Shown here: one piece after another, positions 12,387 to 18,941 of the stretch
How the letters are laid out: each line of letters begins with the position of its first letter
Numbering within the stretch: position 1 is the stretch's first letter
DNA from: an uncultured Spirochaetaceae bacterium
Lineage (GTDB): Bacteria > Spirochaetota > Spirochaetia > Sphaerochaetales > Sphaerochaetaceae
Length of the DNA stretch: 64,000 nt
Assembly (NCBI GenBank): GCA_944389105.1
Contig: CALXLD010000004.1
Coordinates: 1 to 64,000, forward strand
Reading direction: 5' to 3'
Program-made: the position numbers and the translations under genes
The notes under the pieces: generated by a model
What the model was told of the DNA's origin: nothing
What the model saw: only the letters and a program-made list of their open reading frames with translations
Databases searched by the model: none

Positions 12387-14558
12387 TTATCCTTCTACAA
12401 TAATCAAAGGAAGAGATTCTTCAGAATCACCATTCACAGCATAGCGGTAAGAAGTACCCTCCTCCCCAAGGATCTGGTTCATAGACTCCATTGCCATTTC
12501 CCAGGTAACAGAAGAACCGTCAACAGGAATAGCATTTGTGTTCGAAGGAGGGAAAACAAAGCCAACCATCCCACCTGCAGAATCTTGCCCTATACCATTA
12601 TCAGCACCCTGCAATGGCAACCAATAACACGTTTTGTTATTATTGCTATTTCCAAAACCCGCAATACCACCTATTGCTGTCTGACCAGAAGAAAGACTGC
12701 CAATATTGTAACATGCAGCTATAGCACAGTTAGCTCCATTACCAATTGTCCCTCCAATGAAACCTGAATATGAAATATCTCCAGCATTTACACAACAAAT
12801 AATTCTACTACCGCTGCTAGAAGATCCAGAAATACCACCAGCATTTGAGCCACTACCTGTACCTGTCACAGAAGCATAGTTTATACATGCAGCTATTGAA
12901 CCTTTATTCGAACCCGTTATTCCTCCCGCATTCAACCCTTCTATACTCCCAGAAACAGTACAATTCTCAATTAAACCCTTGTTTTCTCCAGCAATACCGC
13001 CAACTGTATTTTCAGTATTTGAAAAAGAGACATTCTCTACATTAAGATTCTTTACAACACCGCTTTCACCAATAGTTCCAAACAGCCCATATCGTTGCGA
13101 TGACGAATTCTCTGAAGCATTTATTACTGCCCCGCTGATTGTATGGCCATTACCATCAAATACACCAGTAAAAGGTTCTGCTGTTGAACCAATTGGAGTC
13201 CAATTGGAAGCCGCATCAGAAAATGCTGCAGGCAACTCTGACAAATCAATGCTTCTTGCAAGTTTGATGTTCTTTGTCAGGAAATCGGACCGCTTCGTAC
13301 AGTTTAATAACCCTTCTGAGGTATAAACCGTATATGTTTCAGCTTTCTCATCAAAGCCAAAGCCCTCTTCTGGAATTTCCAGCAATTCTTCATTTTCTCC
13401 ATTTAACTGTAAATAACAATGATTACCCCTAAAGGCCAGATTCTCCTTGATGTAATCAATGATCTGCTGGTCATCGGTATGAAGAATTGTCTTGCTTTCA
13501 GCATCATTTTCACTATTAATACTTGCAATGAAGATATCAAGAGCTTCCTTATTCCAATCATTGGTTGTCATCTGGATCTCTGTCCCGTTAGTTACTGTTA
13601 CATCAGTTACCGGAGAGTATCCACCATTACTTTGGGAAACAGAACCGTCAGCTGCTTTCCCTCCTGCATTACCAACGACGAGAGCGGCATAAGCAACTCC
13701 ATTTCCATCACTCCATGGTTCTTCTTCGATATACCCATATTGTGAATAATCTGAGATCTTAGCATTTCCTACAGCACTAATTGAACCTCCGGAAACTGTG
13801 GCTTTTCCGCCTCTGACAATTAATCCCTGGATACCTCCTATAAGATCGCTATCAACAATTTCAAGGTTGCCATTAACATTAAACAGCACAGCTGCACTGG
13901 CCCAACCTTCTGATGTATCAACGACAGTGTTCTCTATTCTTATATTAAGCCCATCACTAAGGTCATCTTTTGCATTTGTAGTAATTCCATATGCACCATC
14001 AGCAGTAATCGTAGAGTTATCCGCGACAAACGAAGAAGCATTTCCATCTACCAGGATTCCCGTATGATTGGAGTGATAATCAACATTATTGAAAATAAGA
14101 GAAGAACCACTTAAAACAGCGATTCCTCCTGAAACAGGGTCGCTCCCATTTTCAACAATTTCAAGATCAACCTCTTCTCCCAAAACACCATTGATTACAA
14201 GGGAAGAACCACCTGTAACAGTAATTGCTGCCTGCCCCTGTAATTCATTATCGTAATCATACGAAAGTGATAATCCATAACCATTAAGATCTATTGTATA
14301 GCTTCTGCCATCATCAAAATAAAAAGGATTCTCGCTTGAGGCTACTTCAACAGTTATAGAAATATCTGAAGTAAGTCTTACCTGTGCAGATTCTTCAAGT
14401 GTAACCTTCAATTCCTGTTCACTTGAAACATCATATGGAGTTTTCACCCCATTAATTATCCAAGGAGGAAGTACCCCCCCCCAGCTTGGATTCTGCTTAC
14501 ACCCGACGAAAGCAAATATTAAACAAAATATGATAGCAATAAATGAATATTTACGCAT
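12387..14558 (-). CDS. GLUG-repeat, beta-helix surface lipoprotein with G9 tract
   Basis: The 723-residue lipoprotein has a signal peptide ending in the lipobox FVGC (Cys20). Residues ~40-330 look like a right-handed beta-helix (repeated short beta segments with Asn/Gly turns, such as SSFVADNSTITADGAYGI). Residues ~450-640 hold GLUG-type repeats (GGIAGENKGLIENC, GGITGSNKGSI, GGISGSSSSG, GGIAGFGNS), typical of surface adhesins and IgA-peptidase-associated proteins. The start at 14558 has GGAGGGTGG upstream. A run of nine Gs encodes residues 26-29, just after the lipobox, and could switch the gene on and off by slippage. It is followed on the left by a convergent MFS gene. A role in binding host or polysaccharide surfaces is inference. 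Confidence 0.8.
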   Translation of the reverse strand: MRKYSFIAIIFCLIFAFVGCKQNPSWGGVLPPWIINGVKTPYDVSSEQELKVTLEESAQVRLTSDISITVEVASSENPFYFDDGRSYTIDLNGYGLSLSYDYDNELQGQAAITVTGGSSLVINGVLGEEVDLEIVENGSDPVSGGIAVLSGSSLIFNNVDYHSNHTGILVDGNASSFVADNSTITADGAYGITTNAKDDLSDGLNIRIENTVVDTSEGWASAAVLFNVNGNLEIVDSDLIGGIQGLIVRGGKATVSGGSISAVGNAKISDYSQYGYIEEEPWSDGNGVAYAALVVGNAGGKAADGSVSQSNGGYSPVTDVTVTNGTEIQMTTNDWNKEALDIFIASINSENDAESKTILHTDDQQIIDYIKENLAFRGNHCYLQLNGENEELLEIPEEGFGFDEKAETYTVYTSEGLLNCTKRSDFLTKNIKLARSIDLSELPAAFSDAASNWTPIGSTAEPFTGVFDGNGHTISGAVINASENSSSQRYGLFGTIGESGVVKNLNVENVSFSNTENTVGGIAGENKGLIENCTVSGSIEGLNAGGITGSNKGSIAACINYASVTGTGSGSNAGGISGSSSSGSRIICCVNAGDISYSGFIGGTIGNGANCAIAACYNIGSLSSGQTAIGGIAGFGNSNNNKTCYWLPLQGADNGIGQDSAGGMVGFVFPPSNTNAIPVDGSSVTWEMAMESMNQILGEEGTSYRYAVNGDSEESLPLIIVEG
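14474..14482 (-). repeat. Homopolymeric G9 tract inside lipoprotein gene
   Basis: Nine consecutive Gs on the coding (minus) strand span codons 26-29 of the GLUG lipoprotein. A change of one base would shift the frame immediately after the signal peptide. It is the longest G/C homopolymer I noticed in the window. Confidence 0.9.
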
Positions 14559-14621
14559 ACCACCCTCCACGATAATAATATATAGGAACTTGTTTCTCAT
14601 TCAAGAAAAAGTGATATGCAA

Positions 14622-14687: not shown

Positions 14688-16379
14688 TCAGTTATCTCCA
14701 TCATCTCTGATTTCTGTATTCTTCAGCCAGGACACATCAGCAGAATCCCTGTTCTTTGTCACCATGAAGGAATCATATCCATATGGCTTTGGAGCATTTC
14801 TCTTTCTCTTTGCTTCTCCGAACGGGCGGCGATCTTCGCCTGTTTCAGAGTATCTTGGAGGACGGCGGTCATTGTTTCTCTCACCACGATACATTCTACC
14901 AGTCTCATTGTCCCAGTCACGTCCGCGGCGGTCAAAACGTCTGCTATCTTCGCGTCTTCCAGGCCAGCCCTCACGCTGTCTATAGCTTTCCTTATCGCCA
15001 TAAGGTCTGCGCTCTCTGTCATAATCATCACGATAGCGTGGTCTGTCAGAATAATAGCTGTCTCTGGAGCGATAATCATCACGATAACGAGGTCTGTCAT
15101 AATCCCTGTCGTTGTAACGGTCCCGTGGACGATAGTCGTCATCATATCTTCTTGAACGGCCATAACCACGATCACGGTCTCCCCGGTAGCCTCTCTCTCC
15201 TCCGCGGTCATTCCTCCAGTTATCGCGATCCCTTCTCTGATACGATTCGCGGCCTCTTCTATCTCCGCCTCTCCTTTCATAGGAACGTCTTGGCTCTCTC
15301 TCTTCTTCCGCTTTCTCTGCAGGTCTTGTCTCCACCTGCTCCAGAGCTGTCTCTGCAAATGACAGTCTCTCTACTTTCTCTTCATCCATTCGTCTACTCT
15401 TCTTCGCGGCGGGTCTTTCCTTTATTTCCTTCATATCCGCCGTCTTCTTCATCATCCATACCCTCAATCCGCTTCTCTTTACCGAGAATCCCTGGGCATG
15501 CACATCACCTGTAATCTCTACCGTTTTCCAATAAGGCTTCAGAAGCGTCTTGGAAAAACTGAAATCCTTTAAATTCTCAGAGAACAGAACAACCCCGCCC
15601 TCTGTCAGTATCCTGCTTATCAGGAAAAGATACTCAAGATAATCCTTCTGCACATCAAAATCATCTGCTTTATGCGAATTGGAGAATGCAGGCGGATCAA
15701 ATATGACTATATCATAACGTTCACCATCTTCGTAAGCTCTCTGAAGATAACTTCTGGCATCTGATGAAACAGTTTTATACTTAGCCTTATCTATAAACCC
15801 ATTTTTCTCAAGATTTCTTCCGGCCCAGGCAGTATAGACATTCGAAAGATCGACAGAGACAACGCATTCAGCGCCACCCTGTGCAGCATAGACCGAGAAA
15901 GCTCCTGTATAAGAAAAAAGATTGAGGACCCTCATTGAAGCTGACATGTCCATGATCATCGACCTTGTTATGGCCTGATCAAGAAAAAGTCCTGTATCAG
16001 TATACTCAAGAAGCTCCGTCTCAAAAGTGAGACCGTTCTCTTTCACATCCAGACGAAGTGTCTCCTCTCCCTTCTCGTGCTGTTCTCTTCCCTCTCTCTT
16101 CTTTCTGCTGCGCCAGATGATCCTTGAATGCTCCACATACATGTAGCGGGAAATCAGGTCTATGGCGACTGTCCTATTCTCTTCGGACATACCGCCCTCG
16201 CTGTAATCGACAACAAGAGCATATGGACCATAGAAATCCACTGTTACAGGAAATGCCTGAAGATTCCTGTCATACACCCTGACAGCTGTGGAATCTGTGT
16301 TCTTCATCCATCTGTGACCCTCAAGCGCACCATGCTTAAGGAGTTTAGAAAAATCCTTCTTCTCGAAATCCTCTATCAT
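14688..16379 (-). CDS. RlmI-like rRNA methyltransferase with long Arg/Tyr/Asp-rich tail
   Basis: The first ~310 of 563 residues are a class I SAM methyltransferase related to RlmI/RlmL (23S rRNA cytosine-5 or guanine-N2 methylation): TGLFLDQAITRSMI, motif I VLNLFSYTGAFSVYAA and the catalytic-loop motif FDPPAF near residue 228, followed by LFSENLKDF. Instead of ending there, the protein continues for ~250 residues, first charged (residues 312-360), then an extreme low-complexity region of Arg, Asp, Tyr and Gly (RRGGDRRGR, RPRYRDDY twice), closing with a more ordered SWLKNTEI segment. RlmI itself is about 400 residues with an N-terminal PUA domain, which is missing here. The tail resembles RGG/RNA-binding disordered regions, suggesting RNA tethering. 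Base use in the tail is repetitive, but the frame is open to its stop at a strong terminator. Confidence 0.78.
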   Translation of the reverse strand: MIEDFEKKDFSKLLKHGALEGHRWMKNTDSTAVRVYDRNLQAFPVTVDFYGPYALVVDYSEGGMSEENRTVAIDLISRYMYVEHSRIIWRSRKKREGREQHEKGEETLRLDVKENGLTFETELLEYTDTGLFLDQAITRSMIMDMSASMRVLNLFSYTGAFSVYAAQGGAECVVSVDLSNVYTAWAGRNLEKNGFIDKAKYKTVSSDARSYLQRAYEDGERYDIVIFDPPAFSNSHKADDFDVQKDYLEYLFLISRILTEGGVVLFSENLKDFSFSKTLLKPYWKTVEITGDVHAQGFSVKRSGLRVWMMKKTADMKEIKERPAAKKSRRMDEEKVERLSFAETALEQVETRPAEKAEEEREPRRSYERRGGDRRGRESYQRRDRDNWRNDRGGERGYRGDRDRGYGRSRRYDDDYRPRDRYNDRDYDRPRYRDDYRSRDSYYSDRPRYRDDYDRERRPYGDKESYRQREGWPGRREDSRRFDRRGRDWDNETGRMYRGERNNDRRPPRYSETGEDRRPFGEAKRKRNAPKPYGYDSFMVTKNRDSADVSWLKNTEIRDDGDN

Positions 16380-16466: not shown

Positions 16467-18383
16467 TCAGACTCTGAGCTCGCTCTCCCTAAATACGGCT
16501 TCTTCTCCATCAAGCACCAGGGTTATCTCATCAGAGCCAATGTCTCCATCAGCTTTGACAGCTTCTAGATCATCAGAGAATGAGAAAACGGTAACAAGCC
16601 TGGAATCCTTTGCTGTGATCCTGTACTCGAGCCTATCCACAGCCTTGTACATTCCCTGTTCCTTTCCTGTTGCGATGTATCCACCAACAGGATTCATGGC
16701 TCCCTTTGTCACAGAAAGACAGCCATTGAGGGAAAATGCTGCAGATATATCATCATACAGTGCAAAATTCTCAGAAACCGAAAGGCGTCGCGAATCAATA
16801 TGCCATAGGTAGCAGTATTCATGTTCCTTGTCGCTCAATGTCCTGTCGACAACAATCACAACAGGCTTCTTCACTGCAGAATGCTTCTTGATGAAATATA
16901 TGCTTCTCTTCCACTCAGCAGGGAAAGCCTCTTCATCACCATAGGGGCCTGAATATTTTCCTTCAGCCCAGTCTATGCTATCAGAAGAACCCCATCTGAG
17001 ATCCGAAAGCTTCCCTATATCCTCATCGTTCCATTTATAGCTCTTCCTTCTGTTCTGCCCCATCCCATCAACAATCAGCACATTGTGGCTGAATGAAGAT
17101 AATGTATGCCGTCGCATCGGAGAATCATCATAGGCATAGCAGCCTCCTTCTGTCACGACGCGTTTTCTTCCATCCGATATGATCAGGGAGAGCTTATCCT
17201 CATGCTGATGGCCTCTTCCAAAAGGAGCCGAATCGAAAAGCGCATAGACATCATCCGAGCTCCATCCAGATCTGAATACGAAGAATCCGGAGTACGGAAG
17301 GGCAATGGAGGTATATTCAGGAGCTTTTCCGTCCCTGCCTTTTGATGCACCCCATAAAAGCAGGGGGTTATCAAAGAGTCTAAGCTTCGGCTGCAGCAAT
17401 TCACTTACATCGCTGTAGGATCCGTCGTTGATATCAGGAAGAGCCCCATCTGGTTCCATCAGCGCAATATCGGCTTCTGCAGCCTTTTCGATTGTAGAGA
17501 AAAGCGATGAAGGAATCCTGACATCGAAAACCTGCAGCATTTCAAGGAAGCGCTGATAATTATTCACCGCCACCTCATGATAGCAGGTTGTCAGCTCATA
17601 CTGGAAACCATCCGGATAGAACTGTTTCCCGGCCTCTTCTTCCATAGCTGAAATCGAGAATTCCTTCCATTCTCCGGCTTTCTTAAGGAAAGGAAACAGC
17701 ACCGCAATATGGCTAAGGCCGTTCATCTCCATCAAAAGCCAATTGCCATGCATATGGTTTCTCTGGAGTCTCTCCCCATGCTGATGAAGCGATATGGTTA
17801 TCTCAGAGAGAAGCTCATCGGAGAATTCATTATATAAAGAGAAGATTATATAAGGCCAGTTCGCCCCCATCCTTATACCGCACTCTATGGTTCTCCATGT
17901 ATCTGTATCGCTTCCGGGGACATTGGGAGATGGCGGAGGACAAGTTCTAAGCCATGAAGAAAGAAGCGCAGCTGCTGAAGAGGCATACTTTCTGTTTCCA
18001 GTAACCCTATATTCATGAGCAAGATGCTTTATATCATTATGTCTTGAGAGCTGCCAGGTCCATTCCTTGTAGCCATTGTATGTTGGGTTTGAATGCCAAT
18101 CCACAGCATCCACAGCGCCGAAATCAGAAGGAATCCCTACAGAAATAAGAGTCCCCTCCGCTATCCTGTCAGCTGCGGCCCTGTCACTTTCATCAGGAAA
18201 CTTATATATATTCTCTGGATTCTCATAAGGAATTGAGAAAAAGCGCTCGGAAGCGGAATCAAGATACGACCGAAGAAAAGAAGCATAAGAAGCTATAAAA
18301 TCCTCTTCGTTTACAGAAAGAAGTTCCTTTACTCCAGGAAAGGACTCATTAAGTATTGAGATAACAGCTGATTTATCAGGCAT
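16467..18383 (-). CDS. Heparinase II/III-family polysaccharide lyase-like protein
   Basis: The 638-residue protein has the two-part layout of heparinase II/III-like lyases: an alpha/alpha toroid (residues ~60-350, with HGNWLLMEMNGLSH near 235 and YPDGFQYELTTCYHEVA near 285) and a beta-sandwich (residues ~370-600, with GRGHQHEDKLSLIISD near 395 and SSFSHNVLIVDG near 435). The His and Tyr residues in these motifs are the usual catalytic ones for cleaving uronic-acid polysaccharides by beta-elimination. No signal peptide is visible, so it likely acts in the cytoplasm on imported oligosaccharides. The start at 18383 has GGAGG 4 bases upstream; an earlier ATG at 18407 lacks it. The exact polymer (alginate, heparin, other uronan) cannot be read from sequence. 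Confidence 0.8.
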   Translation of the reverse strand: MPDKSAVISILNESFPGVKELLSVNEEDFIASYASFLRSYLDSASERFFSIPYENPENIYKFPDESDRAAADRIAEGTLISVGIPSDFGAVDAVDWHSNPTYNGYKEWTWQLSRHNDIKHLAHEYRVTGNRKYASSAAALLSSWLRTCPPPSPNVPGSDTDTWRTIECGIRMGANWPYIIFSLYNEFSDELLSEITISLHQHGERLQRNHMHGNWLLMEMNGLSHIAVLFPFLKKAGEWKEFSISAMEEEAGKQFYPDGFQYELTTCYHEVAVNNYQRFLEMLQVFDVRIPSSLFSTIEKAAEADIALMEPDGALPDINDGSYSDVSELLQPKLRLFDNPLLLWGASKGRDGKAPEYTSIALPYSGFFVFRSGWSSDDVYALFDSAPFGRGHQHEDKLSLIISDGRKRVVTEGGCYAYDDSPMRRHTLSSFSHNVLIVDGMGQNRRKSYKWNDEDIGKLSDLRWGSSDSIDWAEGKYSGPYGDEEAFPAEWKRSIYFIKKHSAVKKPVVIVVDRTLSDKEHEYCYLWHIDSRRLSVSENFALYDDISAAFSLNGCLSVTKGAMNPVGGYIATGKEQGMYKAVDRLEYRITAKDSRLVTVFSFSDDLEAVKADGDIGSDEITLVLDGEEAVFRESELRV

Positions 18384-18432
18384 AATTCCTCCAGTAGAAC
18401 CTATCATAATCCATCATCAGGAACAGCACCAG

Positions 18433-18467: not shown

Positions 18468-18941
18468 ATGGATACAGGAGATACAATCGCTTTCCTTAAG
18501 GAAAGAGAGGAAAAATTAGGTGCTCCGATAAAATTCAGGACCTACACGCCATGGTTTGCCAAGCTTGGAGGAGAACGAAGGGACTGGGGAGTATTCCTCT
18601 ATACAGATGGAAAGACAATGGTTTATGAGGACTTCGACAGGGAACCCATGATTCTGGGCATCCCGCTCCCTGGAAGGAAAAAGAAGGATGACTATGTGAA
18701 ACTTGAGGCATCATTTCCCGTCAAGGAGATTATCTCAATAGACAGAGTAACTAGGCAGGATGCCGAAGCATCCCTTAAAAGGAACCATGATGTATCCAGA
18801 AATGCTGGCTGGTTCAGCAAAGCCATTAGAAAACTGGTAACAAAGGTCACGCTCTCCGATGGAAGCATTTTCTTTATGGAGACGATGGATCATAAGAAAT
18901 TCAAGGAAATGATAGAGGCTTTCCAGAAGGAGGAAACATGA
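18468..18941 (+). CDS. Hypothetical protein, 157 aa
   Basis: No family recognised. The protein is soluble, charged and of mixed alpha/beta character: an N-terminal helix (IAFLKEREEKLG), several beta strands (WGVFLYTDGKTMVYEDF; VKEIISIDRV; KVTLSDGSIFFME) and a C-terminal helix. The pattern could be a PH-like fold, but that is only a guess. Its ATGA overlaps the phosphomannomutase start at 18938, so the two are co-translated and may be functionally tied. Confidence 0.6.
   Translation: MDTGDTIAFLKEREEKLGAPIKFRTYTPWFAKLGGERRDWGVFLYTDGKTMVYEDFDREPMILGIPLPGRKKKDDYVKLEASFPVKEIISIDRVTRQDAEASLKRNHDVSRNAGWFSKAIRKLVTKVTLSDGSIFFMETMDHKKFKEMIEAFQKEET

Follow-up and report, generated by a model that had tools for sequence, protein, structure and literature searches.

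The stretch of DNA analysed here (the window) comprises 64,000 nucleotides from an uncultured Spirochaetaceae bacterium. On its reverse strand it carries one intact open frame of 563 codons and a stop, the product of which is a methyltransferase core followed by a long disordered tail (Table 1). The neighbouring genes give no clue to function. A divergent gene for a 157-aa protein without a Pfam match stands head to head with the methyltransferase gene in most relatives examined, and is a possible functional partner of the enzyme. In the window a Heparinase II/III-like gene lies between the two; it is likewise placed in the close relatives L034, L038 and L042 and is absent from that position in others. 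On the other side lies a gene whose 737-aa product begins like a lipoprotein and is without a Pfam match; among the loci compared, a related copy, at 53% identity, was found in L034 only.

Table 1. Features of the rlmK-type gene and its neighbours, in window coordinates.
Feature	Residues	Position	Strand	Evidence
Whole gene, standalone RlmK-type (putative rRNA) methyltransferase with disordered tail, 563 aa	1-563	14688..16379	(-)	frame reading, orthologues
Methyltransferase core; DTGLFLD, NLFSYTG, DPPAFSNS and FSEN motifs	1-312	15444..16379	(-)	Pfam, NCBIfam, PDB, Foldseek, AlphaFold2
Linker with short ERLSF patch, fastest-evolving part	313-359	15303..15443	(-)	omega, conservation profile
Whole tail, 248 residues	316-563	14691..15434	(-)	
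Arginine-rich mixed-charge low-complexity region	360-523	14811..15302	(-)	composition, charge mixing, pLDDT <50 mostly
RPRYRDDY, copy 1	429-436	15072..15095	(-)	translation read directly
RPRYRDDY, copy 2	446-453	15021..15044	(-)	translation read directly
DWDNETGRMYR, short peptide within the low-complexity region, conserved in most of the genus		14886..14918	(-)	alignments, tails
C-terminal motif RKRNAPKPYGYDSFMVTKNRDSADVSWLKNTEIR; family-wide core PYG[YFM][DE]		14706..14807	(-)	complete tails and profile search
Heparinase II/III-like gene		16467..18407	(-)	
157-aa protein, no Pfam match		18468..18941	(+)	
737-aa protein, lipoprotein-like start, no Pfam match		12387..14600	(-)	

Pfam returned only methyltransferase families for the whole protein, with PF10672 at 4.8e-22. 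The best NCBIfam match was the fused RlmKL model NF008748, of which the RlmK half aligned (model positions 396-702 of 704, 1.7e-70); lacking an RlmL half, the protein scored under the whole-protein cut-off of that model. The top solved structures were those of Escherichia coli RlmKL (3v8v and 3v97, 1.3e-46, spanning residues 8-310), and a Foldseek search with the AlphaFold2 model of the protein agreed with the sequence match (3v97, 2e-23). AlphaFold2 ended the folded core at residue 312. An earlier sequence-only reading of this locus had called the protein an rRNA methyltransferase with a catalytic core ending near residue 310, and both statements are borne out, the former by the RlmK-type core that NF008748 and the two PDB entries identify. 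In the alignment, the catalytic-site motifs DTGLFLD, NLFSYTG and DPPAFSNS are as in RlmK and the DPPKF of RlmI is absent. A quick tree of core sequences, in which the one tailless family row sits on a long branch in an unsure position and the misplaced start chosen for one row (L080) adds unaligned residues only, placed the RlmI rows as a distant outgroup. The standalone rows were closer to RlmK yet outside the RlmKL clade, forming a clade apart from the RlmK half of RlmKL (99) and from RlmI.

The sequence-only reading had further proposed that an N-terminal PUA domain was missing and that the tail might replace it as the RNA-binding element. A PUA domain was indeed not found, since Pfam gave no PUA match and the protein starts where RlmK starts in the PDB alignment. 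Its loss, with the idea of replacement, was nevertheless rejected: the core is RlmK-type and not RlmI-type, RlmK has no PUA domain, and its tailless standalone relatives lack one as well. An intact fused RlmKL (L001) is encoded elsewhere in the same genome, as is a second PF10672 protein of 421 aa. Because the core matches the PUA-free RlmK and the genome keeps an intact RlmKL, the protein is an RlmK-type methyltransferase that stands alone as a paralogue of RlmKL's RlmK half, and its lack of a PUA domain is an ancestral state. We infer that its substrate is rRNA; as the genome also has RlmKL, the target of the standalone enzyme may differ from m7G2069.

Beyond the core, pLDDT fell below 50 over residues 321-505 and 519-563 in an AlphaFold2 model whose input alignment held 10 rows only. 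The tail of ~250 residues that had been described at 14688-15330 is confirmed in length and in predicted disorder, whereas that interval omits ~100 bases of the tail start; the duplicated RPRYRDDY unit is present as reported. The low-complexity part of the window protein is ~30% Arg, 15-20% Asp and ~10% Tyr/Phe, with Lys almost nil. The same composition recurred in 60 tailed orthologues (R 0.30±0.03, D 0.18±0.03, Y+F 0.10±0.02, K 0.03), a few of them cut by contig ends or frame breaks, although the low-complexity length analysed varied from 92 to 398 residues. Their FCR was 0.59±0.04 and their NCPR +0.066±0.019. Mean kappa, calculated with our own implementation, was 0.054 against 0.132 for shuffled sequences (30 shuffles per sequence, same residues), meaning that the charges are more evenly mixed than in the shuffles. 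The tail is an arginine-enriched mixed-charge region, with arginine over lysine, high FCR, low kappa and a slightly positive net charge. The sequence-only reading rightly compared the tail with those of eukaryotic RNA-binding proteins, but the RGG-like steps noted there are a weak feature of what is instead an R/D mixed-charge tail, and an RGG box was rejected: the window tail has 2 RGG steps and many orthologues have none.

The repeat units from which these tails are built vary by lineage, with DDRPRYRD, RPSGDRPSYRDRDDR, YGDRDSKPSFGGDRDRRPS, DRDRPPRRFDNDRPRGDRPF and DRDDRGYGRRSYG among the examples. That unrelated units reach one composition argues for selection on composition. In several Sphaerochaeta-like genomes (L071, L074, L081 and L083) the R/D array is also preceded by an acidic, Glu/Asp-rich linker, and a (L)xLxWDDxD patch recurs at the linker's end.

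Searches with the tail gave no significant match in Pfam or the PDB. Within its own genome the window tail matched itself alone among the matches listed, in a search that could miss weak look-alikes. An R/D array query matched only the rlmK-type locus in six complete family genomes, one of the six giving no match, and gave no match in the three genus members tested. None of the DEAD-box helicases of the window genome has an R/D-type tail; two DEAD-box proteins of the same genome (L098 and L099) have basic K/R-rich tails of other composition. A literature search turned up no account of a bacterial tail of this kind, nor any of Sphaerochaeta methyltransferases. A rival idea, prompted by the condensates mentioned in the sequence-only reading, is that the tail forms or enters a phase-separated body concentrating ribosome assembly or RNA processing, in the manner of the eukaryotic arginine-rich mixed-charge domains (R-MCDs) of nuclear speckles. 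The composition fits, with interspersed R and D, a slight positive charge and ~10% aromatics, and raising NCPR toward +0.2 is reported to increase incorporation into speckles (PMC9324279). Since the R/D array occurs at one locus in the genomes searched, with no second such-tailed protein found, and since the conserved terminal motif described below suggests a specific contact and not bulk cohesion alone, we regard a condensate role as unlikely.

The distribution of the tail was examined by a search of the class (297 genomes) that took only the core as query. The window's family yielded orthologous open frames of 423-1315 aa in at least ten genera, and tails of 185-581 residues were confirmed there by reading the genes; the longest frame, of 1315, contains upstream open sequence, and the protein from the chosen start has 809 aa. 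Outside the family, frames were mostly 300-415 aa, bar RlmKL fusions of ~700 aa. Within the genus, every orthologue fetched whole has the tail, which is 200-306 residues long in nearly all and 110 in two. The sequence-only reading had suggested looking for the architecture in related genomes, where it proved family-wide: nearly every family orthologue examined carries the tail, with one lineage having lost it and one having shortened it. The exceptions are a tailless orthologue in G115 and a genus (g32) without an orthologue at the search threshold. In one single-contig family genome (L073; G306:C1:2837500-2841000) the R/D array is split over several frames, with the terminal motif in yet another, through either natural truncation or sequencing error. 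In the core tree the tailed family formed a single supported clade (99 SH-aLRT), and in the other families of the class the tail is absent or short and basic. This pattern indicates a single origin of the tail, at the family's base. Four of the standalone RlmK-type relatives read outside the family (L113, L114, L115 and L119) have short basic tails of 37-57 residues, rich in Arg, Ser and Pro (NCPR +0.16 to +0.33), so that basic C-terminal extensions recur on the RlmK-type protein.

In nearly all computable genus pairs, omega for the low-complexity part was 0.05-0.11 (pS 0.24-0.74) and close to that of the core; these values are approximate, because several pairs are synonymously saturated, leaving omega undefined, and because alignment of low-complexity sequence inflates identity. 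Two related pairs were higher: the barely divergent L025/L030 (0.37) and L025/L027 (0.24). Linker omega was mostly 0.15-0.5 in genus pairs, with some lower exceptions. In the window, no DNA tandem repeat was detected in the low-complexity part, and the Arg, Asp and Tyr codons of the tail are mixed. These substitution rates show purifying selection on the tail; moreover, the family keeps both the tail composition and the final motif, and the tail is therefore real and selected for. A frameshift near 15330, which had been envisaged earlier, is excluded, as orthologues carry tails and omega in the tail is low. More generally, the chance that the tail is a frameshift, assembly or gene-calling artefact is negligible: nothing in the window genome supports it, and independent genus and family assemblies share the same architecture. 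Functionless expansion by slippage of an R/D-coding repeat could account for the long DNA tandem arrays (45 bp x 18 copies at 88%) that several relatives in the family carry, for the variable array length and for the array broken by frame changes in G306. However, tail omega is about as low as that of the core in many pairs, a motif-bounded tail persists in more than ten genera, one composition is reached from differing units, and the array is followed by a conserved motif. Neutral expansion is thus largely refuted already, and we consider it very improbable.

The most conserved part of the tail is its terminal motif. PYG[YFM][DE] was exact in 51 of 54 complete tails, the other three having close variants, and both shortened tails of 110 aa retain PYGMD. 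The usual form of the tail end is PKPYGYDxF..(T/S)(K/R)xR, and FFWL or WLKNTE comes after it in many genera. The SWLKNTEI end that had been described as conserved-looking is indeed conserved in close relatives; the stronger, family-wide motif is PKPYGYDSF just before it. A profile of the motif run over 198 class genomes matched, at E <= 2e-6, a single site in each of 18 family genomes, always in the rlmK-type frame; the divergent copy of G179 was missed at this threshold, and two more matches near E 0.008 are at chance level. An earlier motif profile over 101 family genomes was concordant, matching only the rlmK-type frame. AlphaFold2 predicted no confident contact between motif and core from its alignment of 10 rows only, a point against the docking model proposed below.

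In another reading the tail serves chiefly protein contacts or regulation: the terminal peptide would be autoinhibitory or bind a partner, while the R/D region would play no part in RNA binding and act as an inert, expanded spacer, like the linkers of SSB and FtsZ. Consistent with it, the motif outlasts shortening of the tail, and polymer theory predicts an expanded coil for well-mixed charges at high FCR. On the other hand, an inert spacer need not keep arginine at 30%, lysine near 3% and aromatics at 10%, and the basic tails carried by relatives of other families suggest contact with nucleic acid. We regard this reading, too, as unlikely.

We favor, with about even confidence, a model in which the single-copy standalone RlmK-type enzyme takes part in 50S assembly and its tail is a tether with weak affinity for RNA or the pre-50S particle that presents a docking peptide. 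In this proposal the enzyme would act on rRNA during 50S assembly, and the disordered, well-mixed polyampholyte of Arg, Asp and aromatic residues would be a tether of variable length. Many weak Arg-phosphate and Arg/Tyr-base contacts would hold the enzyme near pre-50S RNA, while the terminal PKPYGYDxFxxTKxR would dock on a fixed partner, whether a ribosomal protein, an assembly factor or the enzyme itself. Both the contact of the tail with RNA and the docking by the motif are putative. Against the tether, the net charge of the tail is slight and well mixed, and tailless relatives show that the core can occur without it. In the eukaryotic model system a strictly alternating R/D peptide did not phase-separate alone, and RNA association was reported for the blocky form (PMC9324279). 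Such data cut against a simple "sticky RNA tail", and our confidence in the tether is held at that level because of them. More speculatively, and less probably than either the condensate or the spacer taken by itself, the R/D domain might organize ribosome assembly in Sphaerochaeta-like spirochaetes, gathering the enzyme and pre-50S RNA into a nucleolus-like body, in which PKPYGYDxF would be the address for a ribosome-assembly partner.

As a rule, disordered tails are passed over for want of alignable sequence. Here, ~60 natural orthologues differ in sequence, repeat unit and length but keep composition, charge mixing and terminal peptide. Orthologues with no tail, a short tail or a long one are available, so that what the tail adds to the enzyme can be tested cleanly.

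Among known systems, the closest is the RlmK half of E. coli RlmKL (YcbY; 23S rRNA m7G2069; 3v8v/3v97), which has the same fold and the same DTGLFLD, NLFSYTG and DPPxFSNS motifs and no PUA domain. The protein described here differs in being a standalone paralogue beside an intact RlmKL, in falling into a separate clade, and in having a 248-aa tail that RlmKL lacks. RlmK and RlmL exist as separate proteins in some bacteria, and RlmKL acts on 23S rRNA near helix 74 and promotes 50S assembly partly independently of methylation (PMC11194073). RlmI and the other COG1092 PUA-type 23S rRNA m5C methyltransferases have Pfam PF10672 in common with the window protein, but RlmI has the PUA domain and DPPKF, whereas the window core has neither and belongs to a distant clade. 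METTL14 serves as a precedent for RNA binding supplied by a tail, since its disordered Arg-rich C-terminal RGG tail provides this function to a methyltransferase component (PMC8755082). Both are disordered Arg-rich C-terminal tails on RNA methyltransferases, that of METTL14 being RGG and that of the window R/D mixed charge, and no homology between them was found (best phmmer E 5.9). With SSB and FtsZ the protein shares the order of a folded core, a length-variable disordered linker and a conserved C-terminal peptide, the last two seen in AlphaFold2, the complete tails and the motif profile; core, linker composition and end peptide are all different. Eukaryotic R-MCDs with interspersed R and D enter nuclear speckles (PMC9324279), and the tail is likewise made mainly of R and D, interspersed and near-neutral to slightly positive. 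It differs from them in being bacterial, in having more aromatics and Gly/Ser, and in its conserved end peptide. The tail is a bacterial counterpart, on an rRNA-modifying enzyme, of domains that among the systems compared here are otherwise described only for eukaryotic nuclear bodies.
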